Below, piece after piece: positions 8,663 through 60,178 of a stretch of 64,000 bases of DNA. The notes under the pieces are model-generated. The model ran no database searches. It was given only the letters and a program-made list of their open reading frames with translations, and was not told the DNA's origin. Source of the DNA: Omphiscola glabra (Eukaryota > Mollusca > Gastropoda > Lymnaeidae); contig OZ024811.1 of assembly GCA_964017045.1 (NCBI GenBank), positions 8,643,674-8,707,673 of the forward strand. The letters run 5' to 3'. Made by a program: the position numbers and the translations under genes. Within the stretch, counting starts at the first letter, position 1, and every line of letters starts with the position of its first letter.

Positions 8663-11272
8663 ACTAGTTGCCTTTATGACATATTTTATTTAATTTGTCT
8701 GCCAGTTCCGTTTGTGTCGAATTCCTGAGCCCATGACAACACCAGACCAATTATGTTTTGACGAACATCTTCTAGCTATCCTAGAGTCCGAGCATGGTAC
8801 GAGCTACCAGATCGGCTCACGTCAGGGCTTGCATGTTCTAAACCTTCACCTTCCTGCTTCTCTAACCTGTCAGCACTGCATTCTACAATGGCGGCATGTG
8901 ACAGGTATGTTTAGGAGGGATACACACGTATGTACAAAACTTGTTTGACAGATGGGCGTCTATAATGTGCATGACAGATGGGTGTATAAAGTGTATGACA
9001 GATGTGTGTATAAAATGTGTATAACATTTGGGAGTATAAAATGTGTATGACAGATGGGTGTATAAAATGTGTGGGGCAGATGTGTGTATAAAATGAGTAC
9101 GACAGATGGGTGTATAAAATGTGTATGAAAGATGGGTGCATAAAATGTGTATGTGCATTAACTGATGTGTATGTGTATGAACTACTATGTGTATAAAATA
9201 TGTATGTGTTTTAACTGATGTGTGTACTAAATGTGTATGTGTATTAACTGATGTGTGTTTAAAACATGTATGACAGGTGTGTGTAAACACTCTTTATGTA
9301 CATGACGTGTGTAGATGTTACAGATGTGTTGACAACAGGTTTATATTTTAATGCCAAGAGTTCGATGGCTACGTTTTGTCTAGGGGTTAATTATATTTAC
9401 GTCACAAAAAATTGATCATTAAAATACAGTATCGTTATTAACACAACTAAATCGTCAACTGCCATAACTTCATCACAACAACTACACAACAATAATACGT
9501 CATTTCCCCTTCCCACAAAATACGTCACAAAATACTAAGCATAATAGATAAAGCAACACATATAATCTCTAAACAACACGCAATCATAATATACATTGAA
9601 GTCCTTAACACTCGTGGGTAACTGAAAGATGTGTAAAAGACGGATGTGTGTTTCAGATGTCTGGGTGTAACAGGTATATGTAAATGACAGGTATGTATAC
9701 AAGGGAATATTGCTGGTCATAACTAACTAGTGTTAAAATGATGTGCTACTACAGGTATGTGAGTGAGTGAGTGTAAACCGGCATGTGTGGAGGATTCCTG
9801 TGTGTGTTTAAGAAAGAAGTGTGTGTATTTAATGACAGTTATTTATAAGTATCACTTGTTTTTGTGTGTCTTAACTAGACAAGACCTAAAGGCCTATCTT
9901 GGATATACATGTAGGCTATTTCTTGTCTGTTTGTTTTCAGGTTTTATGACGAATCAAGACTCATGTTTAACCGGACAGGATGGACAGATTAAATGTCACG
10001 TGTGTCAAGGTTGTGGAGAACAGGTTAATGACAATAGCTTCTTATAATATATTCAATATCCCAAATATCCCAACAATCTTCAAAATACACCAATAGGCTA
10101 AATACTAATAACAAATAAAAAATACCAACAATATCCCAAACATCCCAACCATCTCGTATATCCCTGATTATGTTCTCCAGGTATGGTACACAGGATGCAC
10201 TGATGTCGCCATCCTTGATGACACCCAATCTTCTCCAATCCGTGTGTCCACGCCGCCACCTACCATGACGTCACCGCCTGGACAAAGGAAGGCGTGTCCA
10301 TGTCCTAACGTTGACCCCAACGATAATTTAATAAACTACTCTCCTCCATACAACATGTCTTTGTCAAATCATAGTTTGATGTCCCTCACAAATGACAGGT
10401 TTAATAACACAGTTCGTGTCTATAACAACACAGGGAGCGTCTATAATAACACAAGTCGTGTCTACAACTTCAGTAATGTCGTAGAGCCACGTAATATAAC
10501 TTTGAAACTATTCACAGGTTACCTCAAGCCAATCCCCACCTCAATTGACCTCACCTTGCTTGCCCCCACCTTACCTGCTCCCCTCTTACCTGCCAACATC
10601 ATACCTGTTTCCATCTCATCTGTCGCTAACTTACCTGTCCCCGTCTCATATGCCTCCACCTTGCCAAAACCGATAAATACCACGCCAGAAATACCATCTT
10701 CGCCCCCACCACAAGCTTTAAGAGCCCTTAAACTACATCCAAGATTTAGAACTTTTGCATCAGCTCAAAAATCCATGACACCCAGGACCGCCGAAGTGCT
10801 GAACACCTCGGATGGAAAGTCCCGCCACGCTTCACCGATTACAACTAAGAAGCTTAAGCAAGCATCACAAGATTTTTGTTACATCGCAAATACTGAACGT
10901 CCACAAAGTTTAAGCGTGGATTTCTGGTGCAGCGTAAACTGCCCTGGTCAAGGTGTGAAAACCTGTTTCTTCAGCACTTGCAAACCTGTCTTGTGCGGTG
11001 ATCGCTTTCGGTCAGGACGTCCTCAGGACTTCACTATGACATCAACAAACATGCGCCAGAATGCGGCCAAACTTACGCTTAGTGGTGAACTTGGGTCCGG
11101 CTCACCAAGACCAGAAGTTATAAGATCACATCTGCCTTTTTTAAACACGTATAGCAACTCTATCAATCATGGCCAGTACTTCCAGACTTTTGGTCCACCG
11201 ATGGTCAGAGGTCGAGGTAATTGGTTCAATTTTATGTCCCTTTTCATGGTCAGTGAATTCTTGGATATTTGA
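1602..11272 (+). CDS. AA15-type lytic polysaccharide monooxygenase-like secreted protein, His1 missing
   Basis: Five exons: 1602-1775, 4998-5183, 8706-8904, 9941-10023 and 10181-11272 (stop TGA). They join in phase to 577 codons. AA15 enzymes are secreted copper monooxygenases that oxidatively cut chitin or cellulose. Visible landmarks are a signal peptide ending near STA (residue 23), RMLEPPSRATLWRFGYGTP, CGGYD, NGGRCGVCGD, HEAGG with the second copper-site His (residue 83), FRLC, SLTCQHCILQW, CQGCGEQ and GCTDVAI. A Pro/Thr/Asn-rich linker follows from about 230 to 445. Near residues 447-486 there is a Cys module with FWCSVNC, like the C-terminal module of many molluscan AA15 proteins. The mature N-terminus should begin His-Gly-Arg; here it reads Gly-Thr-Arg, so the histidine brace is incomplete. 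The reading frame is otherwise intact. The exact 3' end is less certain because a possible donor (GTCGAG|GTAATT) lies near 11217. Confidence 0.85.
1845..2050. mobile_element. Degenerate hAT-like MITE
   Basis: Ends resemble each other in inverted form (CCTGCGCAAC at left; GTATGTTGTGCAGGCCTG at right) with GCGGGCC motifs typical of short hAT elements. CACCAAA flanks both sides (1838-1844 and 2051-2057), a likely target duplication. The left tip is decayed. Confidence 0.4.
2866..4440 (-). mobile_element. CR1-like non-LTR retrotransposon, 5'-truncated and broken
   Basis: Minus-strand pieces of a reverse transcriptase read in order from 4440 down: PADWRTAHVTP, LNDCQYGFRVNRSC, then ARLFADDTAVY (the FADD catalytic box), VRYLGVTIQ, and a C-terminal part with VVQRRAARFVL and RDWNKLS. 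Frameshifts and stops separate at least three blocks, so it is dead. The 3' end runs into a TAATAATAATAATA tail near 2866, typical of this kind of LINE. It sits in intron 1 of the LPMO-like gene, on the opposite strand. Confidence 0.85.
4998..5183 (+). CDS. LPMO-like gene exon 2
   Basis: 62 codons, phase 0 at both ends, from acceptor ataacag to donor GAG|GTAATT. Encodes NGGRCGVCGDP and KHEAGGEY, the segment with the second copper-ligand histidine. A nearer acceptor (attacag) would give the wrong phase. Confidence 0.87.
5570..5905. repeat. Dispersed repeat, copy 1
   Basis: Shares blocks with about 9400-9610, including CGTCA(C/T)TTCCCCT, AATACGTCACAA and a run ending in ATA..CTCTAA. Family unknown. 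Confidence 0.4.
6141..6257. mobile_element. Short hAT-like MITE
   Basis: Starts CAGTGGTCAGAAAACTC and ends TTGGCGACCACTG, giving terminal inverted CAGTGGTC. Flanking 8-mers do not match, so the target duplication has decayed. Confidence 0.45.
6828..7230 (-). mobile_element. CR1-like LINE reverse transcriptase fragment
   Basis: The minus strand encodes WMSSNRLKLNDDKTEAIVCG and VRDLGFYIDSKLSM, the conserved region after the RT active site of CR1-type LINEs. Past a frameshift it continues with LRALGQLRPQL and SRLDYCNS. Both ends are missing. Confidence 0.8.
8580..8660. repeat. (AT)n microsatellite
   Basis: About 80 bases of uninterrupted AT, 45 bases before exon 3 of the LPMO-like gene. Confidence 0.97.
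8706..8904 (+). CDS. LPMO-like gene exon 3
   Basis: 199 bases from acceptor tctgccag to donor ACAG|GTATGT. Encodes FRLCRIPEP, the middle of the core, and SLTCQHCILQWRHVTG. A minisatellite starts right at its donor. Confidence 0.88.
8905..9290 (+). repeat. Minisatellite at LPMO exon 3 donor
   Basis: Units of roughly 28 bases of the form ACAGATGGGTGTATAAAATG start directly after the exon 3 donor. GACAGATGTGTGT in each unit resembles the exon end plus donor, GACAG|GTATGT; a few later copies (near 9690 and 9753) read ACAGGTATGT exactly. Confidence 0.8.
9400..9610. repeat. Dispersed repeat, copy 2
   Basis: Partner of 5570-5905 with the same TACGTCA..TTCCCCT and AATACGTCACAA blocks. Lies in intron 3 of the LPMO-like gene. 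Confidence 0.4.
9941..10023 (+). CDS. LPMO-like gene exon 4
   Basis: 83 bases between acceptor tgttttcag and donor CAG|GTTAAT. Encodes a cysteine-rich end of the core (DSCLTGQDG, CHVCQGCGEQ). Confidence 0.85.
10181..11272 (+). CDS. LPMO-like gene exon 5 (linker and Cys module)
   Basis: Begins VWYTGCTDVAIL, the last conserved AA15 block, then a long low-complexity linker with repeated VYNNT sequons and Leu-Pro-Ala runs, then a Cys motif around CYIANTERP and FWCSVNCPGQ. The frame is open to TGA at 11270-11272. Confidence 0.83.
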   Translation, partial: VWYTGCTDVAILDDTQSSPIRVSTPPPTMTSPPGQRKACPCPNVDPNDNLINYSPPYNMSLSNHSLMSLTNDRFNNTVRVYNNTGSVYNNTSRVYNFSNVVEPRNITLKLFTGYLKPIPTSIDLTLLAPTLPAPLLPANIIPVSISSVANLPVPVSYASTLPKPINTTPEIPSSPPPQALRALKLHPRFRTFASAQKSMTPRTAEVLNTSDGKSRHASPITTKKLKQASQDFCYIANTERPQSLSVDFWCSVNCPGQGVKTCFFSTCKPVLCGDRFRSGRPQDFTMTSTNMRQNAAKLTLSGELGSGSPRPEVIRSHLPFLNTYSNSINHGQYFQTFGPPMVRGRGNWFNFMSLFMVSEFLDI

Positions 11273-15823: not shown

Positions 15824-15974
15824 TCACTTAAACATAAAGGAAAAGAATCCTGTCTTGGTATCTTGTTGGGACCTTGTGTCCAGCAGCTGGAAGCTCTCCC
15901 CAACTGTTTTCTTACAATAGATGAAGAACAACCTTTCTGACTTGGTCAACAGGGAGTCAAGGTCAAACTTGAAT
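15824..15974 (-). CDS. TBC gene terminal exon
   Basis: 151 bases: FKFDLDSLLTKSERLFFIYC, ESFQLLDTRSQQ, ending FFSFMFK and TGA. Acceptor TTGTCCAG. Matches the last helices of TBC domains. Confidence 0.87.
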
Positions 15975-18900
15975 CTGGACAAAGTTCAAGGTTAAATCTG
16001 ACTTCAGTATTTCATTTAAATTGTTCTCTGTAGAGTTCAAAGTCTGTGTAAATTAGGGGTCATTGAAGAGGTAATGGTCTTTGATAGTGTATGGTGTATG
16101 ACAGGGGTCATTGAAGAGGTAAGGGTTTTTGTTAGTGTATGGTCTATAATAATGTACTCACACTAGGGACTATGATATTGTAGGATATCTTATAGTAGGG
16201 TAAAATATTATATTAGGTGTCTATGTTAAAGTAGGGGTCTATGCTGTAGTAGGGGTCTATGACATAGTAGGGGCCTAAGTTATAGTAGGCATCTATGTTA
16301 TAGTAGGGGTCTATGTTTTAGTAGGGGTCTATGATATACTAGGGGCCTAAGTTATAGTAGGCGTCTATGTTATAGTAGGGGTCTATATTTTTAGTAGGGG
16401 TCTAAGTTATAGTAGGCGTCTATGTTATTGTACGGTTCTATGTTATAGTAGGTGTCTATTTTATAGTAGGGTCTATTTTATAGTAGGTGTCTATGTTACA
16501 GTTTGGTCTATGTTATAGTAGGTTTCTATGTTATTGTAGGGTTTAATGTTACAGTAGGGCTCTATGTTATAGTAGGGATATATTATAGTAAGGGTCTATT
16601 TATAGTAGAGGTCTATGTCATAGTTGGGTTTTACTTGATAGTAGGGGGTCTATGTTATAGTCGGGTTCTATGTTAGAGTGTGGTCTATATTATTGTATGG
16701 GTCTGTGTTATGGTAGGTGACTATTTTACAGTAAGGATCTATGTTACAATGTGGTCTATGTCATAGTAGGGGGTCATGTTTCAGTGTAGTCTGTTTTATA
16801 GAACAAGGTCTATGTTACAGTGTGGTCTATGTTATAGAATGAGGTCTTTTAACTTATAAAGGAAATAATTTATCTCCATATTTCACAGTTCAACCATTTA
16901 ACCGTTCAACTATTTAACCGTTCAACTATTTAACAGTTCAACTATTTAACAGTTCAACTATTTAACAGTTCACTATTTAACAGTTTAACTATTTAACAAT
17001 TGAATTATTTAACAGTTCAACTATGTTTCTGAACATTGTTTATTTCACAATGAACAATCTCAGTATTGAGCAAATAGAGACATATAAGTTTATGGCATGA
17101 ACATGGCCAAATTCTGTATAAAAATGTCAACCAAAGACTTTTCTATCTTAAAAAATTATACAATTTTGGGCATAAACAAACAAATTATTATATTATTTTG
17201 AGTGCAACAATTGGAAGCCTACTAAATTTTATTACTACCTGCTGGTGTGGTAATTTTCATTGTCTGATATTAAACGCAGATTGAATAGACTAATCAAGAA
17301 AGCTAGTAATATCACACAAACTAAACATCCTTCATTTGACAAACGATTTGAAGAAAAATTCTGTTTAAAAATAAAAAAGTATTGAATGATACATCACACC
17401 CACTTCTTCACTGAGAGCAGCTCAATTAGGGCCAAATATAAAATTTCTTTTGTTCCCCAATCTATCAGAATGTACCAGCGTGCTATCTCGGCTGTTACAA
17501 CATCTAAATAATCACTAACTAAGTAATTATTTTCCCTAAGAGAGTTAAGTTTTATGGTATATGATGGCTAATTTGTAGGTTAAAGAAATACTTTAGATGT
17601 CTTGTGTTTAAATTGTTCTAATTGTAAAATGTAGTCTTGAAAAGAGGATGTATTTATTGATGTCTTGAAAAGAAAATGTATTTATTGGTGTCTTGAAAAG
17701 AAGATGTATTTATTGATGTCTTGAAAAGAAGATGTATTTCTTTATGTGTTGAAAATGAATATGGGCAATGAAATTTTTAAAAAAATATTTCCATTTATTT
17801 GGACCAGTAAAAGAATCTTTTCTTAACTTATTTTACATTCAAACAAATTATAGGAGGGATCTACGATAAAACAATTGTTAAGGACCTTTTCATGTATAAG
17901 GCTGAACAACTTGCTTGTTATTGACTTACTCATTTATTAGGCTAAAAACCTGGCCACAGTCCAAGCAGTTAAAAAACTCTTCCCTGCATTCAGTGAGAAC
18001 AGTCGCACACATGAATACTTCAAAAGTATATTCTTTTTGTGTTGTCAGGGCGGTAGTCCGTACATCACCACCTGCCAATACAACATACATACATCACCAT
18101 CTGTTGTTAAATGAAATGATACATCACCATCTGTCAATACATGATACATACATCACCATATGTTGTAACATATATGCATATCACCATCTTTCAATTTCTT
18201 GATACATACATCACCATCTGTCAATACATGACACATAAATCCCTTTGTCAATTCGTGATACATACCTGTTACAACTGAAAGAACTGATTTTATAATATAA
18301 TAATTGGATAGACAGGGTTATGGGAAATAAGCTTTAAAACCAAAGTTACAAATATAACTTGGATAGAACAATTCTTGTTACAAATATTATATTGATAGAA
18401 CAATTCTAACTGATTAAATACATCACCTGTACTTTCAAATTCTTTCATTTCTTCTTTCATCACAGCTCGGGCAGCTTCTAAGCTGGTCAGCTCAATGTGA
18501 TGGCTGGACAAAATCTCAAAACATCTTAGTGAGTCTTCATAGCTGAACTCTCTTTTAAAACCAAGCAGTAGCCATCTATTGAAAGTACAAACAGTAGCCA
18601 TCTATTGAAAGATTACAAGCAGTAGTCATCTATTGCATGATTACAAGCAGCAGTCATCAATTGAAAAAGTAAAATATGTAGCCATATTTTTACATGTACA
18701 TGAAGACAAAAATGTAGACAGACAAAACATAAAGATACTAATAAAGACACAGATACTAAGACATAGTAAAAGAACATAAAAACCATGCAAACATAGAGCT
18801 ATATGAATATATGAACAGTGAAACATAAAGATATAGTAGGAAGTTAACATGGGAACATAAAGCTATAAAATGAAGTTAACATGGAAACATAAAGATATAA

Positions 18901-21900
18901 AAGGAAGTTAACATGGAAACATAAAGAAATAAAAGGAAGTTAACATGGAAACATAAAGATATAGTAGGAAATTATCATGGAAACATAAATATATAGTAGG
19001 AAGTTATCATGGAAACATAAAGATATAGTAGGAGATTAGCTTGGAAACATAAAGATATAGTGGGAAGTAAACATGGGCAAATAAAGCTATAAAAGGAAGT
19101 TAACATGGAAACATAAAGCTACAAAAGGAAGTTAACTTGGAAAAATAAAGATAAAGTGGCAAGTTAACATGGAAACATAAAGCTATAAAAGGAAGTTAAC
19201 ATGGAAACATTAAGCTATAAAAGGAAGTTAACGTGAACAAATAAAGCTATAAAAGGAAGTTAATATGGATACATTAAGATATAGTAGGAGGTAAACATGG
19301 AAACATAAAGCTACAAAAGGAAGTTAACATGGACAAATAAAGCTATAAAAGGAAGTTAAGATGGATACATAAAGATATAGTAGGAGGTAAACATGGAAAT
19401 TTAAACATGTAGGAAGTTACAAAAATGTAGACAGACAAGACAAAAGGATACTGTGATGAAACATAAAGATATAGTAATATGTTAACATGGAAACATAAAG
19501 ATATAGTATAATGTTTACAAGGAAACATAAAGATATAGTAGGATGTTAACACACCTGTGACAAAAAAATAAATTTCCCAAATCAATCATGTCCAGATGTT
19601 TCAGGAGAGCAGGGTCCATCTCCTGCAGCAACATTCTAACAAGGTCTGGGATAAAAGATAATCACAAAATACAAGACGATTATAGTCATGATACAATTTA
19701 ATCACAAGATCTGAGATATGATATATAATCACAAGATCTGGTGTCCAATACAATTTATAATTGGAAGATCTGGGGCCAAATATAACTACTAGATCCAAGG
19801 CCTGATATAATCACTAGATCTAGGGCATAATATAATTGCAATATTTGGGGTTAAATATAATCACTAGATCTAGGATCAAGTATAATCATTAAATCTAGGG
19901 CCCAATTATATTACAATATCTAGGATTAAATATAATCATTAGATCTAGGGCCCAATATAATCACAATATCTAGAGCCAGATATAACCACTAGATCTAGGG
20001 CCCAATATAATCAAAAATAGGGAAAATCTGAAGAAAAAAGAGATTTACTAAAAAAAAAATGAAGTGGTGACAAAATGTCTTAGCAAAAAAGCTATATTCC
20101 TTTTTTTGTTTTGTCTCTTTATTTTTTCAGGTTTTCCCCACAACCTTAGGGGAACTTATTCTCTTCTACCAAACCTGATTACAGTCCCTCTCCACTTTTT
20201 ATTATGCAAAATATAGTATACTCACAAGTTATGTGTACTGATTTATTTCCTCACCTATTTTGTGTGTCATTCCTTCCTCCATAAAATCATTTCCTATTGT
20301 ATCCATGTAAGTCTCAAAGCACCAGAATGCTTCTACCTGTGAACAACACAAGTTAGGGTTAGGGTTACAATACTAGTGATGTCTTTAATCCACTTTAAGG
20401 TTAGGGTAGTCTTTAACAAATTAACAATTAAAAAATTAGGTAAAGTTTTATGTTTTTAGAACTTTTAGATAAAAGAGATTTCTTTAAATTGAAAAAATGT
20501 AATTTGACCTTACCTCTGACTTCATGATGTACAGAAATCTGGACAAGATGTCATTCATTCCCTGGGCATATCCAAGTTTTTCATTATAGGCAGAAAATGT
20601 TATGAGAATCTCCCTAAGCTCTGACAAACGAGGATTACCTTGACCACTGAGATAATAAATATACAGTTTAACATTGTCGTGACAACTAAGTTATTAAATA
20701 TATAGGATAGCATTGTCTTGAAAACTAAGGTAATAAATAAATAGGATAGCATTGTCTTGACAACTAAGTTATTAAATATATAGGATAGCATTGTCTTGAA
20801 AACTAAGGTAATAAATAAATAAACGGGTGAGGATTGTATTGACAAATAAGAAAATAAATATTCTTAACATAATTGGTGTACTATGGGGAGGACTGCAGTC
20901 AGATTGAAACAATATAAAATATATGTTACCATAATTGGCTACCATGCCTGAATTCCCTCTCTACCTAGTTACAATGGCTATTGTCTCAATGCATATGGCT
21001 ATCATGTATAGTCTCAATGTTTATGGATAAAATGACTATAATCTCACCAGACCTGTTTACTCTTACGATTTTGGCGTACAATTTACGAATTTTGAGATAT
21101 ATACATTATATATACTGTATGTTTATTTTTTCTATTTAGATACTGTATTGAATGATTTTGTGATGATATTGTAAGATTTTAAGAGTTTGAGGGTAAACAG
21201 GTCTGTCTCACTGTATATGGCTACAAAGAATATAGTCTAACTATATATGGCTACAATGACTATAGATTCACTGTATATGGCTATCATTGTCATGACTATA
21301 GCCTCCCTGTATATGGCTGCCAAGACTATAGTCTCAATGTATATGGCTATCATGACTATAATTCATCTGTATATGTCTATTAGGAATATAGTCATACTAT
21401 ATTTGACAGACCCCAAACTCCTAAAATCACACAATATTGTCTCAAAATTGTAAATAACATTAACTTAATAGTACATAAATAAACAAACATTATATATAAT
21501 GTATACACTAACTACTCGCATCGCGTGTTTAGTGGGATCAAAATAAGTTGGTGTCAAAAAAAATTGTAACTTCTAAAAGTAGATGACCAAAGTTTCTATT
21601 GCAATCTTAGGTCACTTTGTTTTGCAGATTTGTATTTGTTATAGATATTAATTTATATTGAGTGAATGTGCAGATCACATTATCACAGTCTGTCACTGGT
21701 AAAAAAAAAGTTACTGGCTAAATTTAATGTGGTTCAAATTCAAAGTCAGATCAGCTTCAAATAAAATGTATTAAAATAAGAATTAATTAACAAATGATGA
21801 CATCTTTTAAAAACCTACCAAGTAACTTGAGTTTTATAATTTAGGAAAAGCTGGTTTAAAAAAAATAAAGAAGAATCAATATCCATTAAACTTATTTTGC

Positions 21901-29749: not shown

Positions 29750-29869
29750 CTGCAAAATACAATCTTTAGTGAACAGTAAATGTTAATCAATGTATGATGT
29801 CACATATGTAACGGTTGTATGTAGTAATATATTTAACACTTGCATGCAGTATTGAGCCACTCATTTTAA

Positions 29870-30240: not shown

Positions 30241-30439
30241 GCTATTGCAATATTTCACATATGACAATTTCATTGTGTTACATGTGATATTGTTTTGAGA
30301 CTTCAATGATTATTTTGTTGAATCAAATAAAAATTATGTCTTACATCTTACTTTCTACAAATGTAATGGGACACATTTAAAAATAGTATTTTTTAATATT
30401 GGGAAATTGCATTGAGCTACTTACAACAAGAGAGATGAG

Positions 30440-34170: not shown

Positions 34171-34244
34171 TAATTATCCAATTTAATTTTAATTACTAAC
34201 CAACCAATGAAATTTTAATTAAAAACATTCCATCGTCATATTAA

Positions 34245-35085: not shown

Positions 35086-35087
35086 CC

Positions 35088-42373: not shown

Positions 42374-42557
42374 CTAATGGATGTCAATGCCTGTTGTATT
42401 GGGAAGTAATAAACTAGCCAGTCCACCACAAGCCAACAAACCAGCAACTAACAGCATTGGAACAGCACAATATGTGTCGACCAATTCACCAAAAATGATA
42501 TTACCAAGGATGGCCCCCACACGAAGAGATGCTGTTTGAACACCAAATGCAGTCGAA
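42374..42557 (-). CDS. SV2-like gene terminal exon
   Basis: 184 bases: STAFGVQTASLRVGAILGNI, then PMLLVAGLLACGGLASLLLP and NTTGIDIH, stop TAG. Acceptor TTCAACAG. Confidence 0.93.
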
Positions 42558-48500: not shown

Positions 48501-51500
48501 ATGTTGGCCACACAATTTTATAGATCCAGTCATACAGTTTTACTAGTATACCACCTAAACTAACCCATTCTATGATATGATATGGACCTGTACTTCAAGT
48601 TAAAGAACCAAATGCATGGTGACACAACATATCTCATGTATGGTGGCACATTTCTCATCTCTGGAGACACAATATATCTCATGTATGATGAAACAAATCT
48701 CATGTATGGTGAAACAAATCTCATGTATGGTGAAACAAATCTCATGTATTGTGAAACAAATCTTATGTATTGTGACAAAACATATGTCATGTATGGAGAC
48801 ACAAAAAAATCTCATGTGTCATGTCAACATATATTTCATGTTGTATGTTGACACAGCAAATCTCATGTACCGGGTATGGTGATAAAACATATCTCATGTA
48901 TGGAGACCCATATCTCATATATGGTGACACAACTATCACATCTCTGGAGACACAGCATATCTCATGTATTTCACACAACACTTATCATAAAAACCTCTCA
49001 ATTTTACTTTGGAATGATTCTTGAAAAGTGAATCTCACACCCCCCCTCCCCCCCCCCCCCCCCACATCATTAACAGAACAATCTTTTCATTTCAGTTAAT
49101 TTCTTTTCTCCAGTAAGTTCAAAGTTTTCACTCAATTGAAAGAAATAGGTTCATAAAACAATCATTGTCTTAGATTTTAAATTTGAGAATTAATGATGAG
49201 CTTTTTCTTGTAGCAATCAATGTCCAATGGTTCATAATTTGCAAGCTGATTGAAACAGTAAGAAAATGTAAAAGCTTCAATGACACAAGACAAAAAACAT
49301 TTTGGCTAAAAGCCTTCACCAGCAATCATGCAGCAAATAAATTCAGCAAACACATGCAGCACACACTGCAATAAAAACTAAAGAGAGTAAAATAAGAAAT
49401 TAGCATAGAAAGGCTTGACTGGCAGTCACATCCAACAAAAAATTCATCACTTAGGGTGATATCTAACAGGCTGAGAGAGACAAATATGCATGACTGACCT
49501 CCAGATGTGTTTTAGCCTTGTTGACTGAGTGCACATACTTCAACACAGCAATGGCATCTTGCTCTTTTCCAATCTACAGAAACAATATTTACATATAAAA
49601 TTTTACAATCATAGGCAAATTTAGATGGTAATGAGATTGCACTGGGCTCCTGGGGAAAATTTCCACAAGCAAACACAATTCCATGATTATAAAATGACAA
49701 TTTATTTTTAAAAATCTAAATTGGACTGTTACTGTTAGAAGTTCATCACTATTATAAAATATATGCCATTAAGAGCATTGTTTTTGAATTGGTGTAGAGC
49801 AGCATGTTTTTCCTAAAAACCAGGGCTAGGACTGGGGGTAGACCTTCTGTTGCTTATACCCCAAAGCAAACATTCCATCACTAGCTCAAGTTGAAATCAA
49901 TGGATCGTCACAACCATTATCTATTTGCTTTATTATCATTCTTTTTCAAAACAAATAATCTTTTCATCCATTTACATTATCATCAACCCGCTCTGATTTG
50001 AGTCTTTTTTTTCATTTTTGTCACCTCTATACATTAAAAACTGTTACTAAAACATATAAAAATACAATACATCCATGGGCTTGGCCATTACAGTGACCTT
50101 TCTCAAGTCATGTGGTAAAAAACACATTTTAATATGGACTGTTCATCTAGACCAGTGTTTCCCCAACCTTTTTTGTGCCATGCCCCAACTAAGCCTTTCT
50201 AAAATTCTAATGCCCCACCCCCATTGTGTCATATACATAATTTTTAATATTCAAAAATAGGTTTGTTGACTGAAGAAACTTAAATGTTAGGTTTTAGAAA
50301 GAAATCACTGTGAGGAAATATAGATAAATTTTCAATACATATAATGGAGAACTCAAATTCAGTACAAAATAATTTTTCTATGGAAGATTTTACTATATTA
50401 TTTAAATTTTTAGTAATTATTTATTATTTAAATTTAGTGATGTTTGTGCTTGATGCTTGCTGCAAAGAGATTTCATGTTAGGTTCCAATGTAGTTAGCTT
50501 CAGTCTCAATTCTCCCCGTAGTGTTATATCCAGCCAATTTCACTTTTTTGTTTTGTTTTTGTAGCAAATCATTTATGGCACTAAATCCACATTTAGCAAA
50601 ATGTGAAGATGAAAACGATAACAATAGTTTTCTTGCACATTTGGTTGAATTTGGATATTTGATTTCCGATTCCTCACAATGCCATGTCATCGCTCCTTTT
50701 ATATTAAATAAAGTTTTAACTGACTCATCATTTTGCATGTCTGCGAGTTTTTCTTGATACTGCATATTTGAAATATCAGACAAATCCACTAACATTGGCT
50801 GCATCATCCAAGTTGGAAAATCAATTTGTTTCAAATCAGAAAAACTTTCTTCTAAATCGGCAGATATAATTTTTATATGATCGACAATAACAAGTATAGC
50901 TGAATCAGTGACTTCACATTTTTGGAGCAAATGAAACTTTTCAAAATTTTTGTTGTAAATATTTTTCTGACATAATTCAATAAAGGTAATGAAACCAAAT
51001 AACTTCGTTTCTGCATGGACAAGAGTTTTATTTGTTTTCTGAAGTTGGTTAATTAATATATTTAGTTTTTCAAAGATATCGGCTAAATAGCTCACAAATG
51101 CCTTACCATTGACCGTTAACAGATACTTCTTTTCAGGTTTGTCACTTATGATTTTTCACAGATTTAGCGATGAGTAGGGAAATTTGATAACTAGCCTAAG
51201 AGTATGATTGACAGTTGTAATATGAGCAGTAAATAGAGACTTTAATGTGGCTGACTTAATATTTTCGAATCGCCCCCCCCCCCCCCCCCCCCCGTTAAAC
51301 AATAAAATTGCCCCCCTGTGGGGGCGTGGACCCCATGTTGGGAAACACTGATCTAGACTCTAGAGCAGTGTTTCCCAATCTTTCTTTTGCCATGCCCAAA
51401 CTAAGCTTTTCTTATTTTATTCTTATGTCCCATATGTAATATATACCCGGTACATATTTTTTAATTTTCAAAAAATCAATTGTTCACTGAATGAAAACTA

Positions 51501-54500
51501 AATGATAGGTCTAGGAAGAAAGAAAAAGGCTTTAGGAATTAATAGGTTTAACAAAGAATTTTTTAAGGAAACACAGTCAGTAAGTAAATTTTCAATACAT
51601 ATATAATTATTATAATGGAGAACTGAGATTCAAGTACAAAATGTAATATTTATCTAAAATGAAATATTTTTCTAAAATATTTTAATTATTTATTATTTCA
51701 TTAATTATTCATTATTTAATTATTTTAAAATCCAATGAGAGATCACAGATACAGTGTGAGATGACTAATTTAGTGATACACAGGGGGTATGAATCAAAAT
51801 TTTAAATATTTCTCTGAATAATGAAAATTTTTTTTTTTAACAGCACTAATCTACTCATTTTACTGTGAGGCTGACAGAAAATTACCAAGAAAATAAAAAA
51901 TAGGAAAGAAAATATTAAATTTATTTTTAAAACTGTAATATTTATACACACTTGATTTTGTCACAAGAGCTGCAATCAGAAAAGATAAATCTATCGTCTC
52001 TCGTAGATGGAAAGATGCCATACAAATAGTTGTACAACTTTATTTTCACCAAAAAAACAGATAATGCACTTGTTCTAATTATAATTATTTGCCAAAATCA
52101 ACGGATTTTTACAACACTTTTTTTTAACAAACGCTTACTTTAAACTGAGACTAAGAATTCTCCTTTTGAAATACAAGTTAAATCGTAGTAGACGGTTTTC
52201 AAATTACAGATAGCTAATTTTTGAAATGCCCCCCCCCCCCCCCTGTGGGGCATGGGCCCCACATTGGGAAACACTGCTCAAGAGTAAGGTATTGGTCTGA
52301 TTAGACCAAATATTGGTCTGATTGGGTAGTGGACTTTTAAAACACAAACATATAAAGCAGGAAAACTGGTTCAAAGTTCTACCTGTGTCTTGCTTTCACT
52401 AACTGCCTTAAAAGGTCTAGTTGTGTCTTACTTTCAACAAGAACTTTGGACTTTCAGGCATCAAGACAAGCAGGGCAGCTGAGGTAAGGCTAGGCAAAGT
52501 GCACAAAGCTACAAAGACTCTCCAACTGTGGAAGGTAAAGTCCCCAGAGACAAAGCTCAAGTACTCTAATGGGATGACAATCCATGCAAGACCTGTGTGG
52601 ATGATGGATAAGTATTAAGTGTATATTATTCTTAAGTTTTTCTAATGACTATGAGCCTCCAAAGTGTATTAATCATTTTGATGCTCAGTCATTGTGTTTT
52701 AGAAATGTTGATGTGCATTCATTGTGTATTAGTCATTTTGGTGTGCATTCATTGCTTGACAAACTCTTATTTTAATGTCACTAATTACGTTGTTCAAAGA
52801 CAGTTGAAATGCTTCAATATTATTATTTAAAAAATATATTAACAAAAAAGGTAAGTTTTAAGTTTTAAACTTAATTTGTCAGCATGCTAAACAAAACTAA
52901 ACAATTTCCACAAAGATTCTTGCAAGGTGAAAATTAGCACCTTAAAAACTATCTGCTATAAAATAAAGGGACTTTGAAAACAACCAAGTTATGCTTCAAA
53001 CTAAGGAAATGTGTTCCAATAAAATCTGCAAGACGGAATAGAGTTAAGGACATGACCAATCATAAACTAGCACAGATGGCATGACAAATCAAAGACTAGC
53101 ACAAATGACAAGACAAATCAAAGACTAGCACAAATGACATGACAAATCAAAGACTAGCCCAAATGACATGACAAATCAACAACTAACACAAATGACATGA
53201 CAAATCAAAGACTAGCCCAAATGACATGACAAATCAAAGACTAGCACAAATGATATGACAAATCAAAGACTAGCACAAATGACATGACAAATCAACGACT
53301 AACACAAATGACATGACAAATCATAGACTAGCACATAACCTTTGATACATGACTAAATGGCCAAGAAAATGATGAAGCCAGGACCTATAAAATATTTTCC
53401 CTTTGACCACTGACTCCAGGACAAATATGAGGCCAAGACCTACCTGCAGCTACAATATTCCCTGCCATCCAAAATGTTGCCAGTAAACTGATCATGGATC
53501 CCCTTCTGGTCTTGTGTTGGAACTCAGTGTAGTAGGTAAACACTACTGGCATACTGCCTCCTACTCTAGACAGACAATTGTATAGAATATATCAATAAAT
53601 ATCTGTAATATATATATATATATATATATCGTATATAACAATGTCAAAGAACTCTATATTTATAAAGCAGGAAACTATTTTTGTGTAGTCGTGTATAGTG
53701 CATTCTAATCATCTAAACCAAGTTAAGCATACCACTACAGCCGCTATGACTTAAGGGCGTTAAAAGCCATACAAGTTGGAAACCACCACTAACTTGTTAG
53801 GATTCACAACCAATCATAAGACATTGGCCAACATTTCTTGTATGCAACAACAGTAGCACCATTTTAGCAGTTTTGTTTTTAAATTTTGTACTTGCTATTT
53901 GATAATGATATCTGATGTGCAAGGATTTTGGGAGTTGATATACAGGGATTTAGGTAGTTGATATACAGGGATTTTGAGAGTCGATGTACAGGGATTTTGG
54001 GAGTTGATGTACAAGGATTTTGGGAGTTGATGTACTGGGATTTTGGGAGTTGATGTACAAGGATTTTGGGAGTTGATGAACAGGGATTTTGGGAGTTGAT
54101 GTACAGGGATTTAGGGAGTTGATATACAGGGATTTAGGGAGTTGATGTACAGAGATTTTGGTAGTTTATATACAGAGATTTTGTACACAAAATTATGTTT
54201 GCGTCCAGTAAGGGGAGACAATTTACTGGTAAAACATTAAAGTTCATTTATTTAGTAAACAAAACTTTACAGAATTAAGAGGAATAAATGTTGCATAAAG
54301 GCATCCTCATTTTCCCTACTACCCCTACTACAAGTTGCATTTCTTTTCAAAACACCCATGGATTTGAGAAGGGAAATTCTGGCATCTTAAAATATGATAA
54401 AGGATAAGCAATATGCTTTCAGGTTACACCAGTTTGTACCTATCTATTGATACTGTCATGGAGAAAGAATTATTTATATTATAGTTGATATTATATTATA

Positions 54501-57500
54501 ATATCTAAATCAGCGGTCATATCAGTTAGTTAAGATCATGTTAAATATCCTGAGATATGTGTGAGCATAAACCTGAATGCGCATTAGTCTGGTCAATGCT
54601 AAGATAGTTGTCTAATCTTCCATTTAGTATTACACAGGTAAAACTGGCTGACTGGTATAAAATAGACATCTACCATAAAAATAAATGACCTTTGAAATTA
54701 AGTTCAAATTCTTAAAATATGGATTAGTCCTGATGGATGTTTACCAAGGCTTAAAGTGAAATGCAACCAATATTAATCTAAGCCCCCCCCCCCCCACACC
54801 CTTTGACCAAAACAATTGGTCCTAAAATCAACAAGTAATCTTAGTGACTACTGTGACCCCACAACCCAAAGCTGAGACTAGAACTAAATACTAACCCCAC
54901 ACCACTGATAAATCGACAGATTAAGAACAGCCAAAAGACTTGTGACACACTTGAGCCAAGGTTGCCGACTCCGTTGACCAATAAGGACCAAACTAAGATG
55001 CTACGTCTGCCCCATTTGTCCGCAAGAGCTCCCCAGATATAGCCTCCAACCATCATGCCTAAAAAAATAAACAAAATGAAGTATAAAACTAATGTTAACA
55101 GTGTTCTTGGTAATTCATCATCATGTCCCGTAGTCTTTCGACCGTTGGGGCGCCACATATGACATAAAAACTATTCTTCTCCATTTCTCTCGGTCTCCTG
55201 CCCAATGCATAGCATCGCCTAGTTGTAATCCTGTCCATTCATTGATGTTATCTTCCCATCTTTTTCTCTGTCTTCCTCCTCTAGTTGTGCCCTGCAAGAT
55301 TTCTTTGGCGAGCCCTTGTTTTCTGGTCACGTGGCCATACCATTCAAGTTTGCGCTTTTTTACAGACGTCAGGAGGTCATCGTTCTGCCCAGTTGCTTGA
55401 CGAATCCTTTCTTTTACTTGTTCATTGGTGATATGGTCTCTCTAGCCAAGAATGTCTCTGAAACATCTCATCTCCATCGCCTTTATTTTCTTTTCAAGTT
55501 CTGCTGTTAATGTCCAGGACTCAAAGGCATATAAGAAAATGGAGAGGATTAATGAGCGCATCAGCCTGATTTTGGTGCTGGGAGCTATATTTTTGTTGTT
55601 CCATATTTTCTTGAGCCTCTTTAGTGCTGTTGTGGTCTGCGCAATCCTGGCCATCAATTCGGGGTTGGAGCCTTCTTCCGAGACTATTGCTCCGAGGTAC
55701 TTGAAGCTGCCAACTGTCTCTAATCTTTCCTCACCGACCTTAATTTCAGTGGTGATGCCAGTGGTGCTATTTGGCATAATTTTTGTCTTTTCTGCACTGA
55801 TTTGCATGCCAAAGTACGATGAAGTCTTGTCGAGACGCTTTACTAGGTTGGCTAGCTCTTCTTCGCTTCCAGCCAGTCCATCTATGTCATCCGCAAAGCG
55901 TAGGTTGGTGATTGTTCTGCCACCAATGCTGACTGTCCTTACATGCGTTTCCAGTGCATCTGACATTATTCTCTCTAAGAAGATGTTGAACAGGGTGGGG
56001 GAGAACAAGCAGCCTTGTCGTACTCCAACCGTGGTCATGAACCATTCTCCGATGTTATTGTTGAAGAAGGCTGCGCTGGTGGCCTTATCATAGAGGCTGC
56101 TTATCATTCTGGTTAAGTTTGTGTTGATGTTGTAGTGTCTCATGGTGGCCCATAAAGCAGCATACCAAACCCTGTCAAATGCCTTCTCAAAATCCACAAA
56201 GACGTGTTATAGGTTTTGTTGGTGTTGAGCGTATTTCTCACATAGTATCCGGTGGTTTAGGATCTGCTCAGTAGTGCCACGTCCTTGCCTGATTCTTCAG
56301 CTATGATACTGTCGGATTAGGTCTTAGTCGGTTCAGTATGACCTTCAGCATGACCTTGCTTGGGTGGCTTATTAGGCTAATGGAAATTACAGAACAGAAA
56401 AAGCCATTGGGGTAGGACTAAAAAATAAAATCTGTCATTATTCTTAACAATAGACCTGAAGGTGGCGCTAAAATCATTCAGTGTAATTAAGGGCACAATG
56501 GACAAGACTCACTACACAATGTACAAGCCTCATTACTCAGTCAACAGGCTTCACTAATCAATGTACAGGCCTCATTACTTAAATCTCACTGAAATGGCTG
56601 ATGTTTTAGTTCTGAATTTTCATATATTTATGTCCACACTGCAAGACATTTCAGATTTAGATATTTAAGTCATTTGTGTATGTGCATATTGCAAGACCCT
56701 TTAAACACGTTAATGAAATAATTTAAATACTGAGAAGAATTATCATGTCATTTTTTTTTATTGCTAACTTAACTACTTAACTATACATAATTACTCTCCA
56801 ATCAACTGACCTAAAAAAACGATAGCGTTGAGCCATCCTTTATCAGCTGATGTCAGTGAGAGATCACAAGTAGCAGCAGGTAGTAGGAAACTGACAGAGA
56901 GGACTTCTATAGCATCACTGGACACAGCCCACCCACACAGCAGCAGCAAAAGGAGATGGAACTTGCCAAAACCTACCAGTTAATCAAAGGATAATATGTG
57001 CTCAAGACTTGTAAAGCAAATAATGGACCAAGATATGATTAAGCTTGATGCCTTATTTGGCAGACAATACAATAGAACAAACAATTGATAAATTTTAATT
57101 AAAAAATTGTCATGTAGCTCAACAAATGAACTCATGGACATATACAAACAATAGTATATACCAACAATCGGGGGGGGGGGGGGGTTTGCTAGGCGGCTAT
57201 TGGGATTTTAGGGAAAGGGGTAACTTGCAAATCATATAATTGTTTGAATTTAGGCCCCAAATTTTCCTCTATGTAGTTTTATAACTATTGATGCAGACTA
57301 CACTTGAGATGTCTTATAACTATTGATGCAGACTACACTTGAGATGTTTTATAACTATTGATGCAGGCTACACTTGAGATGTTTTATAACTATTGATGCA
57401 GACTACACTTGAGATGTTTTATAACTATTGATGCAGGCTACACTTAAGATGTCAGAACTATTGATGCAGCCTAAACTTGAGATGTTCGAAATTAATTTTT

Positions 57501-60178
57501 TTTTAATTGAAAAAACAATATCTGTATATGTGAACAACAGAAGGCAAGAACAAGATAAGGGTGCAGCTTATTATTAGGAGTGGTAATTCTTGGAACAATA
57601 TAGTATTTAGTATTTTAAGAAATTGGAATAGCAGGCTGTTAAAAAAAAAATCTGACTACCTTACTGCAGACTTGTTAACCCCTACACTTTTACCGGAGTA
57701 GCTACATTTTTTAGCCTAAGACTACAAAGAGCCTAAGACTATGAAGAGCCTAAGACTATGAAGAACCTAATACTACAAAGAGCCTAAGACTACGAAGAGC
57801 CTAAGACTATGAAGAGCCTAAGACTACGAAGAGCCTAAGACTACAAAGAGCCTAAGACTACAAAGAGCCTAAGAATACGAAGAGCCTAAGACTACGAAGA
57901 GCCTAAGACTACGAAGAGCCTAAAACAAAACTAAGTTTTCTGGATTTTTTTTTGGTTGTTTTTTTTATTATTTTAAAACTATAAAATTGGTTTATTTTCA
58001 GTAAAAAGCTACCACATTTTTTTTATTGTCAACAACATAAGCAATCAAATAAGAATGATAGTGATTTGCCTTTGTGGTCTCGAACTCTATGAGCCAACCA
58101 AAATTTTTAAAAAAATGTTAATACTTAACTTTAACTTTTTAGCCCTACTGCTGCTTATAAATTGGATTTTGCCTAAATGCTTCAATTTTGTTTTAGCTCA
58201 GATATACCTATCAGTCAAGCAAGTCTGTGCAGTCAGTGCCTATCAGTCCAGCAAGTCTGTACAGTCAGTGCCTATCAGTCAAGCAAGTCTGTACAGTCAG
58301 TGCCTTTTGTGCTTACCTAAGACTTTTTCTCATCCTTAATCAAAAAATAGGATGACCACATCTTGTGTATTTTTTTGTGTTAACTTATATAAGCAGCTGA
58401 GTGCATTTCCTGAAACAACTTGTGTTTTGATTGTGAATTCCCCTCCCATCCCCTTTCCCGCAGCTAATTGACCAAACTACTCTTTGGAGCTTAAACTATG
58501 TTTTTGAGAGCTGAAAACTACTCTAACTCAGGGGTAAACATGTTGTTAATGTGGTATAATAATATTCTATTCAAGTGTATAATTGATAAATAATATCCAT
58601 AAATTTCTATAACAGAGTGTGTCTGTGTGTGGGGGTGAGGTGGCATATGGATGAGTTTATGCACCAAAGAGAGTATTTTGAGAACCACTGATCTATACAA
58701 TGACTTTTATAAAATAATTACCCTTATAACAACCAAAACTTATAACATGCCAACAGGACATCTTTTACCCTTATAACAACACTAACTTACCACATGCTAA
58801 CAGCACATCTTCATAAACCATCACTTTTGCACTGTCTCCTGGAAATGAAAGCAGGTTTGTATGTAATACTCATCATTTCATCATATCATACAGAAAAATG
58901 TCATTACCAACCTTCCATCATGTCATATAGTAACATTGTATTAACAATCTTTCATCATGTAAAATAATAAAATGTCATTAACAACCTTCCATTATGTCTT
59001 GAAGTAAATGTCTTATAGTCCAATGCCATTAGAAACTTTGAGACATAGTTTATTATACAAAGATTCTTAAAATTTTCACTTTTTTCTTAAGGTTTAAGGT
59101 CAATAGGTCCTATATACTTTCACTTATGTCTTAAGGTGAAAGGTTATCATTGACATTTATGCATGAATTAAACAAGTGCATTATGCTTTCTATGCTTTTT
59201 TATCTTAAAATACACTGACATTCTTTACTAAGATTCTGTGACCTACTAAATCCAAAGAGAAAAACTATCTGATATTTCCACAGCGAGCAGTGTGACAGCG
59301 AATGATGATTATTATTGATAAGATGTAATATATTAAATGCCCCAATTTACTTTGGTTGTTAAAAGCTTAATAAAACTATTTTGAAAAATAATTTTATTTT
59401 TATTACAATGTTACTCCACAGGTGAAAAACATGCAAATATATATATCTATTACCTTATAAGAAATTATGTTACGCTGTAAGTGGAGTACATGTACAATCT
59501 ATTACAGACATAAATTAAAAACTAATGGTTTGGTGAAATTTATTTATAAAATGTCATACATGATTGTGTTGATTTTTTTTTTAAATGAAAAGAGTTTGTA
59601 ATAAACATTTCTAAATTAACTTACCCCTAGAAACAGTTGAGACATAAATTATAAGACAATGTGCTATTTGTAAAGAATTAAAAGCTTTGACCTACTTGGT
59701 GGAAATGTAAGGTTTTGTTGGAACTTTTGGTGGGAAAGTAAAGTTATGTTTGACCTACTTAGAGGCATTTTAAAGCTATGTTCGACCTACTTGATGGGAA
59801 TGTAAAGCTGTTAGACTTACTTGGTGGGAATGTAAAGTTGTGCTTGACCTGATTGGTGGGAATGTAAAGTTGTGTTTGACCTACTTAGAGGCATTGTAAA
59901 GCTATGTTTGACCTACTTGATGGGAATGTAAAGCTGTTAGACTTACTTGGTGGGAATGTAAAGTTGTGCTTGACCTGATTGGTGGGAAAGTAAAGCTATA
60001 TATGACCTACCTTTTCTTTTCTGTAACTTAGTGGCGTCATCTCTGTTATCCAGCAGCTGGGTTGTTTCATCTTGATTTGTATCCATCATATCATCATGAC
60101 TTGTATCCATCATATCATATTGACTTGTATCCATAAAATCATCTCTTATGTTCCATTCTAACTTAGGGCTTAATGAAT
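42374..60178 (-). CDS. SV2-like major facilitator transporter
   Basis: Thirteen exons in 5'-3' order: 60178-60011, 58838-58791, 56972-56811, 55058-54896, 53565-53444, 52592-52432, 49573-49499, 48378-48259, 47399-47311, 45826-45748, 43723-43576, 43044-42885 and 42557-42374 (stop TAG). All phases agree, giving about 559 codons. SV2 and SVOP proteins are 12-helix membrane proteins of the major facilitator superfamily, found in vesicles in animals; their cargo is poorly known. Family marks: SSDAIEVLSVSFLLP in helix 1, loop motif GALADKWGRRS after helix 2, GVGGSMPVVF, FHSWRVFVALCTLPS, PESPKFLL, SFLTSISNLPGNI, ERIGRKPLL and ELFPTNVRSTAFGV. A long cytosolic loop follows PESPKFLL, and a short lumenal loop carries NST and NET sequons; the long pentapeptide-repeat loop of vertebrate SV2 is absent. 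So this is an SV2-like/SVOP-like protein, not a strict SV2A-C orthologue. The start codon lies in an unfound upstream exon. Confidence 0.93.
42885..43044 (-). CDS. SV2-like gene exon, helices 9-10
   Basis: 160 bases: SSMVLSGISVFFLWFVKKRW, then FGAISVCGFNMLDILQTEL and FPTNV. Donor TACG|GTGAGT. Confidence 0.93.
43380..43590 (-). repeat. About 21-bp minisatellite at SV2-like exon donor
   Basis: Nine or so units, on the minus strand GAAACTATTGTTAGGTGACA. These match the exon end and donor GAAAACCTTTGCTAG|GTAAG of exon 43576-43723. Confidence 0.85.
43576..43723 (-). CDS. SV2-like gene exon, lumenal loop and helix 8
   Basis: 148 bases: TGNSTNNETSCEQPGNTVYI, SFLTSISNLPGNIITILIVE and RIGRKPLL. Donor CTAG|GTAAGT. 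Confidence 0.92.
43915..44265 (+). mobile_element. 3' end of an RTE/CR1-like LINE
   Basis: The plus strand encodes KERICQAIGQYDDLLVSVKK, KLEWYGNKSRK, GRQRKRWEDNIKEWTGLKL and SGAPQRSKD, then a (GAT)n tail. It is the same family as the minus-strand element 55112-56390. 5'-truncated. Confidence 0.87.
45147..45498 (+). mobile_element. tRNA-derived SINE with poly(A) tail
   Basis: The head has an A-box-like GTGGCCGAGTGGTCTAA and a B box GGAGTTCAATCCC, as in leucine/serine tRNAs but not folding as a full tRNA gene. An unrelated body follows, then A14. CAGTAT flanks both sides (45141-45146 and 45501-45506), a likely target duplication. Lies in a SV2-like intron. Confidence 0.82.
45748..45826 (-). 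CDS. SV2-like gene exon
   Basis: 79 bases: YYGLFLWFPELFSRIDKYGG and SFCDLK. Acceptor ATTTCAG, donor AAAG|GTTGGT. Confidence 0.9.
46725..46850. repeat. Dispersed repeat, also at 48430-48575
   Basis: Shares TTCCAAAATGT(G/C)TATG, CAGTTTTACTAGTATA and CTAACCCATT(T/C)TATGATAT with the second copy in a neighbouring intron. Family unknown. Confidence 0.6.
47179..47201 (-). ncRNA. Hammerhead ribozyme core, second copy
   Basis: The minus strand reads CTGATGA-AGGCATGTGCC-GAAAC, identical in core to 37242-37264, with similar flanks. Penelope-like relic. Confidence 0.6.
47311..47399 (-). CDS. SV2-like gene exon, helix 7
   Basis: 89 bases: LFDSTILLFGKSLRRTTLIL and LFINFAIAFG. Donor TTTGG|GTGAGT. Confidence 0.9.
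47440..48015 (-). mobile_element. 3' end of a CR1/L2-like LINE
   Basis: The minus strand reads NSAARLVLKAQKRDHVTPLL, HWLPLQARIDHKLSVLCHNF, and after frameshifts TAFKTALKTHLFKLYYPD. The 3' end carries a TAATAATAATAATA tail. Inserted 40 bases upstream of the acceptor of exon 47311-47399. Confidence 0.85.
48130..48270. repeat. Degenerate donor-like repeats at SV2-like exon
   Basis: CACTTACAATAACTTAAG, CACTGACAGTAAATAAAA and ATTACAGTAACTAGTGACC resemble the exon border CACTTAC|AGTAACTAAAAG of exon 48259-48378. Confidence 0.55.
48259..48378 (-). CDS. SV2-like gene exon
   Basis: 120 bases: LESLVLTEEDIKSYVSEGFQ then KYKFYWRFKALLVT. Acceptor TATCACAG, donor TTACT|GTAAGT. Confidence 0.87.
48600..48980. 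repeat. ATCTCATGTATGGTGAAACA minisatellite
   Basis: About 16 units of roughly 21-24 bases. Long frames on both strands here are repeat artefacts. Confidence 0.93.
49499..49573 (-). CDS. SV2-like gene exon
   Basis: 75 bases, 25 codons: IGKEQDAIAVLKYVHSVNKA and KTHLE, the cytosolic loop after helix 6. Acceptor TTCTGTAG, donor GAG|GTCAGT. Confidence 0.88.
50153..51350. mobile_element. hAT transposon with transposase relic
   Basis: 1198 bases from CAGTGTTTCCCCAACC to GTTGGGAAACACTG, flanked by ATCTAGAC on both sides (50145-50152, 51351-51358). A C-run lies inside the right end. The minus strand keeps the C-terminal half of a transposase. Confidence 0.93.
50478..51095 (-). pseudogene. hAT transposase remnant (ZBED5/SCAND3-like)
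   Basis: 205 codons open on the minus strand: MSYLADIFEKLNILINQLQK, then PNSTKCARKLLLSFSSSHFA and KCGFSAINDLLQK. This resembles the C-terminal half of Buster-type hAT transposases, including the hAT dimerisation region (typically TYLCE.GFS). The N-terminal part with zinc finger and first catalytic residues is missing, so it is not a full enzyme. Confidence 0.8.
51366..52276. mobile_element. Nonautonomous hAT of the same family
   Basis: 911 bases from CAGTGTTTCCCAATC to ATTGGGAAACACTG. Flanks CTCTAGAG and CTCAAGAG match at 7 of 8. Like its neighbour it has a C-run and CTGTGGGG(G) just inside the right end. No coding capacity seen. Confidence 0.9.
52432..52592 (-). CDS. SV2-like gene exon with PESPKFLL
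   Basis: 161 bases: LAWIVIPLEYLSFVSGDF, FHSWRVFVALCTLPSLTS and PESPKFLLK. Acceptor CCACACAG, donor TTGAAA|GTAAGA. Found from the protein motif, since the longest frame here is on the other strand. Confidence 0.92.
53040..53340. repeat. 31-bp minisatellite
   Basis: About nine units of AAATGACATGACAAATCAAA then GACTAGCAC. Confidence 0.94.
53444..53565 (-). CDS. SV2-like gene exon
   Basis: 122 bases: VGGSMPVVFTYYTEFQHKT and ISLLATFWMAGNIVAA. Acceptor GTCTAG, donor GCAG|GTAGGT. Confidence 0.93.
53920..54180. repeat. 23-bp minisatellite
   Basis: About eleven units of GTTGATGTACAGGGATTTTG then GGA. Confidence 0.94.
54896..55058 (-). CDS. SV2-like gene exon, helices 2-4
   Basis: 163 bases: GMMVGGYIWGALADKWGRRS, then LGSSVSQVFWLFLICRFISG. 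Donor GTGG|GTTAGT. A LINE ends only about 54 bases upstream of its acceptor. Confidence 0.94.
55112..56390 (-). mobile_element. RTE/CR1-like LINE, 5'-truncated, RT mostly intact
   Basis: The minus strand has a 251-codon open frame with VDFEKAFDRV, GVRQGCLFSPTLF, LRFADDIDGLA (catalytic FADD) and SFKYLGAIVS. The C-terminal GRQRKRWEDNINEWTGLQL follows after a frame change, and a (TGA)n-type tail ends it. Upstream of the open frame are frameshifted remains (HHRILCEKYAQH-like). It is oriented with the SV2-like gene. Confidence 0.9.
56811..56972 (-). CDS. SV2-like gene exon, helix 1
   Basis: 162 bases: GFGKFHLLLLLCGWAVSSD, AIEVLSVSFLLPAATCDLS and KGWLNAIVFL. Donor TTAG|GTCAGT. Confidence 0.93.
57270..57480. 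repeat. 35-bp tandem repeat, about 6 units
   Basis: Units TTATAACTATTGATGCAGAC then TACACTTGAGATGTT. Confidence 0.94.
57705..57925. repeat. 17-bp minisatellite
   Basis: About 13 units of AGCCTAAGACTACGAAG. Confidence 0.95.
58208..58304. repeat. 33-bp tandem repeat, 3 units
   Basis: Units TATCAGTCAAGCAAGTCTGT then ACAGTCAGTGCC. Confidence 0.92.
58529..58690. mobile_element. Possible short hAT-like relic
   Basis: Begins CAGGGGTAAACATG and ends TTTTGAGAACCACTG. The ends match only weakly and the flanks poorly. Confidence 0.3.
58725..58815 (-). repeat. Duplicated exon end and donor, SV2-like gene
   Basis: On the minus strand GATGTGCTGTTAGCATGTG|G (exon 58791-58838 and donor) is followed about 47 bases later by GATGTCCTGTTGGCATGTTA. 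Confidence 0.75.
58791..58838 (-). CDS. SV2-like gene exon
   Basis: 48 bases: DSAKVMVYEDVLLAC. Acceptor ATTTCCAG, donor TGTG|GTAAGT. An imperfect copy of the exon end and donor lies just downstream. Confidence 0.9.
59690..60012 (-). repeat. Minisatellite at SV2-like exon donor
   Basis: About ten units of TTTGACCTACTTGGTGGGAA then TGTAAAGCTATG. On the minus strand units carry AAGTAGGTCA, matching the donor AAAG|GTAGGTCA of exon 60011-60178. Confidence 0.9.
60011..60178 (-). CDS. SV2-like gene, first exon found (N-terminal cytosolic)
   Basis: 168 bases. Contains a coding tandem repeat of eight residues (MDTSQYDM, MDTSHDDM, MDTNQDET) and then LLDNRDDATKLQKRK. Donor AAAAG|GTAGGT founds a minisatellite. 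Confidence 0.87.

Follow-up and report, generated by a model that had tools for sequence, protein, structure and literature searches.

Splice junctions in a 64,000-nt stretch of the Omphiscola glabra genome, all of which we analysed and which we refer to as the window, carry tandem arrays whose repeat unit combines the edge of an exon with the adjoining splice site. Eight such border arrays are recovered by Tandem Repeats Finder (TRF), and seven of them lie in a single TBC/Rab-GAP gene. The arrays are probably minisatellites of the type known from amphioxus as mirages, that is, tolerated duplications of splice junctions generated by an ordinary process in introns rich in minisatellites. If the duplications favour junctions at all, they do so no more than modestly, and the tendency is visible in one gene.

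The DNA of the window is AT-rich and of animal type. Our models of three genes comprise 29 exons with 54 borders (27 donors and 27 acceptors; Table 1), compared with the 30 exons counted in an earlier, sequence-only reading. The first TRF and alignment analyses used 51 borders, and the final set of 54 was obtained by adding TBC exons 0 and 12 and the exon-11 donor. The TBC product matches RabGAP-TBC in Pfam (PF00566, E 6.5e-36) and shares 96% identity with L. stagnalis P0121. The SV2-like product matches Sugar_tr and MFS_1 and shares 92% identity with L. stagnalis P0001; upstream of this gene we did not find a short initial coding exon. For the LPMO-like gene, position 8757 is an arbitrary left edge and the real exon start may lie elsewhere. 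Its product did not match any family in the Pfam search and aligns across 35% of the query, at 54% identity, with a PF03067 protein of Biomphalaria pfeifferi. The longest contig listed for the L. stagnalis orthologues is 2,672,706 for both the TBC and the SV2-like gene, and the pair appears to be linked in that species too. By eye, open stretches on the minus strand at 2983-4212, 55445-56206 and 61387-62046 resemble parts of non-LTR retrotransposons. Another open stretch (30974-31128, plus strand), with acceptor- and donor-like ends, lies within the first TBC intron and may be due to chance or be a nested exon.

Table 1 Genes modelled in the window and repeats at their exon borders (positions in nt from the first letter of the window; arrays are named by the border that they adjoin).
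Feature	Positions	Strand	Description
Chitin-binding type-4 (LPMO-like) gene, part	8757..11216	+	3 exons modelled
TBC/Rab-GAP gene (TBC1D15/17-like)	15824..35376	-	13 exons, complete 508-aa frame, no internal stops
SV2-like transporter gene (MFS)	42374..60178	-	13 exons modelled, frame clean
Array on TBC donor 29553 (exon 1)	28200..29562	-	37-bp unit, ~37 copies, 8-10 exon bases
Array on TBC donor 27824 (exon 2)	27719..27851	-	38-bp unit, 3.5 copies, 28 exon bases
Array on TBC donor 27030 (exon 3)	26678..27047	-	31-bp unit, ~12 copies, 18 exon bases
Array on TBC donor 25581 (exon 4)	25266..25592	-	33-bp unit, ~10 copies, 12 exon bases
Array on TBC acceptor 20646 (exon 7)	20639..20861	-	39-bp unit (best-scoring period 78 bp), 8 exon bases
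Array on TBC acceptor 18575 (exon 10)	18562..18666	-	28-bp unit, 14 exon bases
Array on TBC acceptor 18071 (exon 11)	18060..18221	-	59-bp unit, 12 exon bases
Duplication on SV2-like donor 58791 (exon 2)	58718..58811	-	Two 47-bp copies, 21 exon bases
Extra copy of SV2-like donor 52432 (exon 6)	52385..52445 (edges approximate)	-	One 38-bp copy; alignment, stacked copies
Weak repeat of SV2-like donor 48259 (exon 8)	48130..48275 (edges approximate)	-	64-bp repeat; alignment, stacked copies
Diverged array beside SV2-like donor 43576 (exon 11)	43382..43590 (upper edge approximate)	-	20-bp array; TRF and alignment

We defined a border array as a TRF array with a score of at least 50 and a period of at least 10 that overlaps an exon border by at least 5 exon bases. 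The eight that qualify, again eight under the final 54-border model, each include 8-28 exon bases and sit on five donors and three acceptors, so that 5' and 3' boundaries are both affected. The copies in these arrays, and those at 43576, 52432 and 48259, were also inspected as stacks. As a separate measure, 34-nt junction windows were aligned to the flank of their own intron, with unrelated intron flanks as the null. At 5% BH, 13 of 51 borders have a copy of their junction in their own intron. These 13 are the eight TRF borders together with 43576, 52432 and 48259 and the marginal cases 42557 and 18427, the last two being left out of the supported count. Ten borders reach the floor of the test (P ~0.002), and each strong junction copy is not a product of chance. 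The exon part alone is BH-significant at 6 of 51 borders (18071, 18575, 25581, 27824, 27030 and 58791); that of the 29553 array is not significant by itself. At 43576 the TRF array ends at 43567, and the likeness to the exon comes from the alignment only; at 52432, GC replaces GT in the second copy. In the same alignment test, 19% of 300 intron pseudo-borders also have P <=0.01, a share equal to that of the real borders.

The sequence-only reading had listed 14 borders with arrays, and ten of these are upheld by TRF or alignment. The four not upheld as including exon bases are 8904 (P 0.018, not BH-significant, with the copy 370 nt away and a TRF array that begins 26 nt into the intron), 19645 (P 0.023, not BH-significant), 19555 and 60011, the TRF arrays of the last two ending 3 nt and 0 nt short of the exon, respectively, with alignment P values of at least 0.25. 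The list also lacked the 18071 acceptor array, which both TRF and alignment support. Its statement that the repeats differ from exon to exon is correct: consensus units are distinct among arrays, and a junction aligns more closely with its own flank than with intron flanks unrelated to it. It had further proposed that each array grew from its own splice junction, which raises the question of direction. The exon bases within the units encode residues that are largely common to orthologues (alignments of 11 and 10 sequences, with departures at single positions). In the TBC gene these are YPCNST (27824), LVLDS (27030), RWLLLGFKRE (18575) and GGD(V/T)RT (18071), and in the SV2-like gene (Y/F)ED(V/A)LL (58791), GRKPLL (43576) and PESPK(F/Y)LL (52432). 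Because other snails have these residues too, the exon predates the array at most supported borders. Several arrays are copies of their own junction, and for most of these the exon is the source, a conclusion that does not extend to 25581 and 48259 because the residues there are not widely conserved.

These border arrays lie in introns in which repeats are common. Arrays make up 25% of the intron sequence of the three genes and 12% of the window outside gene spans, and 38 further intronic arrays in the three genes do not overlap any border by TRF. In 10 of 26 introns at least one end has an array no more than 10 nt away, and the TBC intron 18576-19554 holds two different ones, at 18562-18666 on the acceptor and at 18820-19551, ending 3 nt from the donor. 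The eight junction arrays are more homogeneous (83-97%) than the 38 others (72-95%; P 0.019) and may be younger or have formed by another route; the difference may also be a detection effect, because recognition of an exon copy favours young arrays. Inspection by eye of the founder ends did not reveal microhomology. A 24-bp coding minisatellite (MDTSQYDMMDTSHDDMMDTNQ) occupies 60067-60144 in SV2-like exon 1 and is shorter in the L. stagnalis protein, so that coding sequence, too, seems to undergo changes in its tandem copies.

Whether borders are hit more often than expected depends on the null, the excess ranging from none to ~4-fold. When the presence of a border within a repeat is compared with that of intron positions, under five settings, 6 to 10 of 51 borders are covered vs. 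22-24% of intron positions (P 0.83-0.98; with a 24-nt window and at least 18 matches, 9 of 51 borders vs. 24.4% of positions), and the 51 borders are thus not covered more than introns are. Collapsing each array to one unit, a founder, gives a different picture for the 46 arrays and 54 borders: eight borders are hit vs. 1.94 expected for a one-unit tract (P 0.0004), 3.25 for a 1.5-unit tract (P 0.013) and 4.51 for a two-unit tract (P 0.074). By gene, the founder null yields 7 vs. 1.05 expected for TBC (P 4e-5) and 1 vs. 0.71 for the SV2-like gene (P 0.51); the two genes differ in their share of border arrays (7/24 vs. 1/25, Fisher P 0.023). We also scored intron pseudo-borders in the TBC and SV2-like genes with the full TBC model, weighting by copy number, requiring that copies span the junction and searching in both directions. 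Here 7 of 49 borders reach a score of at least 36 vs. 2.5 expected, 11 vs. 4.9 reach at least 28, and 13 vs. 8.2 reach at least 24, an overall excess of ~1.6- to 2.8-fold; border 17930 scores 28 in the pseudo-border test. At a score of at least 36 the TBC gene has 6 of 24 borders vs. 1.58 expected (P 0.004), or vs. 1.04 with a one-direction search (P 0.0004), and the SV2-like gene 1 of 25 vs. 0.92 (P 0.61). A first form of this test, covering all three genes, gave 7 of 51 borders vs. 36 of 480 pseudo-borders (P 0.10), with overall P values of 0.10-0.60, P 0.005 for the TBC gene at a score of at least 36, and a match at 0 of 5 borders of the LPMO-like gene. All of these P values are optimistic, because the window was chosen for its unusual look.

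Taken at face value, the founder and pseudo-border nulls indicate that duplications probably began at borders more often than elsewhere in one gene, and the signal of both stems from that gene, TBC. The arrays had been described as occurring across all three genes and as the rule, and neither description is supported: seven of the eight arrays are in the TBC gene (7 of 24 borders, vs. 1 of 25 in the SV2-like and 0 of 5 in the LPMO-like gene), the coverage null is without excess, and the window gives no support to junction arrays as a general rule.

The statement that such arrays leave decoy splice sites does hold for donors. Scored with a matrix built from the other real sites, the number of decoys that equal or exceed the real donor is 34 at 29553, 8 at 25581, 6 at 27030 and 1 at 27824. 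There is one such decoy each at 52432 and 48259, where both real donors are weak by the matrix, and none at 58791, 43576, 60011 or 19555. Among the acceptor arrays, 0 of 15 AG candidates reach the score of the real site and two come within 2 bits; the contrast with donors, drawn from four arrays, would fit a purging of decoy acceptors upstream of the real one. Reading through from exon to intron meets a stop in all six donor arrays examined. The TBC protein obtained with the exon-proximal sites is 508 aa long, the same length as its L. stagnalis orthologue, and aligns to it with 0 gaps across 432 residues, which on the sequence argues for use of these sites. At 52309-52445, L. stagnalis P0001 continues through the second junction copy, with a 13-residue gap against the Omphiscola protein, and it lacks the conserved SV2-like exon 7. 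This could mean that a gene predictor took the duplicated junction for a 39-nt intron or that L. stagnalis has no duplication here.

Arrangements of this kind have been described in amphioxus, contrary to the earlier statement that no described process was known, although the authors of the globin study also call the mechanism unclear. There, tandem repeats over exon-intron boundaries are named mirages, in the globins BflGb6 and BflGb9 and, as cited, in Adh3 (PMC3087553). Their copy number differs between two haplotypes, RT-PCR suggests that splicing is undisturbed, and the authors propose that mirages are possibly general in cephalochordates and that new introns may come from them (PMC3087553). 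Splice-site repeats are also reported for amphioxus PGBD5, in a paper that cites mirages in Adh and troponin C, which according to its authors do not yield aberrant mRNAs (PMC3902484). As far as the available parts of these sources describe them, the snail arrays resemble the globin and Adh3 mirages in being minisatellite-like duplications of both 5' and 3' boundaries with locus-specific units and decoy signals, but their units are 28-59 bp rather than 150-160 bp (globins) or 10-72 bp (Adh3), and seven boundaries are affected in the TBC gene, unlike the one boundary per globin gene in amphioxus, a cephalochordate (PMC3087553). Likewise, the 5' and 3' splice sites of PGBD5 are overlain by imperfect tandem repeats of 60 and 108 bp, but with fewer copies per site than the snail arrays, the 108-bp repeat being a triplication (PMC3902484). 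In their sequence features the arrays agree with mirages: the unit is exon edge plus splice site, both boundaries are affected and each unit is specific to its junction. Our literature search did not return a report of mirages in molluscs among the matches listed, most subscription papers lying outside its coverage. The kind is thus already described, and what is new, within the literature searched, is its dense occurrence in a mollusc.

The explanation that we favour begins with a short segment (28-59 bp in the eight clear cases) that by chance spans an exon end and its splice site. Such a segment would be duplicated in tandem, presumably by ordinary slippage or unequal exchange, in an intron where minisatellites already abounded, and its copies would then increase in number and be homogenised there. 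The exon-proximal copy would remain the working splice site, with the rest as decoys. The duplication would be tolerated because one intact junction always persists beside the exon, unlike duplications inside exons, which would usually not be tolerated. What counts against this explanation is the founder excess (8 vs. 1.94, and 7 vs. 1.05 in the TBC gene), since chance placement does not readily produce enough border arrays. The greater homogeneity of the junction arrays and the poorly shared exon residues at 25581 and 48259 also tell against it. The founder excess, together with the excess of the TBC gene over its pseudo-borders in both search modes, favours a reading that we nevertheless regard as unlikely, in which splice junctions, or those of the TBC gene, are true hotspots where tandem duplications are born, with breaks linked to transcription or gap repair at exon edges as possible causes. 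It is difficult to reconcile with the SV2-like gene (1 of 25 vs. 0.71 expected) and the LPMO-like gene (0 of 5), with the plain coverage, with the overall P of 0.07 for two-unit founders and with the first-form pseudo-border test (overall P 0.10-0.60), and the window was selected for its striking look. That the splice junctions of some genes in lymnaeids are preferred birth sites of minisatellites, several-fold over the intron background, is likewise doubtful.

The decoys themselves could be maintained for a function, as spare donors, to slow splicing or as noise that lowers expression, and the four TBC arrays with donor decoys that match or exceed the real one (34, 1, 6 and 8 decoys) could be taken in this sense. 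The weakness of the acceptor decoys and the stops met on read-through speak against it, as do the unit lengths, which are a multiple of 3 in only two of eight arrays and so without preference. In one of two arrays tested, moreover, exon-derived columns are more variable than intron-derived ones (0.894 vs. 0.977), and in the other the two are about equal (0.968 vs. 0.959). We consider a function of this kind very improbable. Least probable of all, and hardly credible here, is that the arrays are left over from the birth of introns through tandem duplication of an AG-GT segment. The intron-gain model of Rogers (cited in PMC3087553) does involve splice signals copied in tandem within a gene, and in several donor arrays, 25581 and 27824 among them, the units carry AG|GT. 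However, each of the snail arrays sits at a single end of a pre-existing intron, one and the same TRF array at both ends is found in 0 of 26 modelled introns, and the intron 18576-19554, with an array at each end, has different ones.

If junctions were nonetheless hotspots, exon borders would be a mutational hotspot outside the chordates. The seven cases in one gene offer a test of how the spliceosome chooses among many equal sites, one intron alone presenting 34 donor decoys that are equal by our matrix, and borders of this kind may lead gene predictors astray. The dense set in this mollusc suggests that mirages may be present in any genome with abundant minisatellites in its introns.
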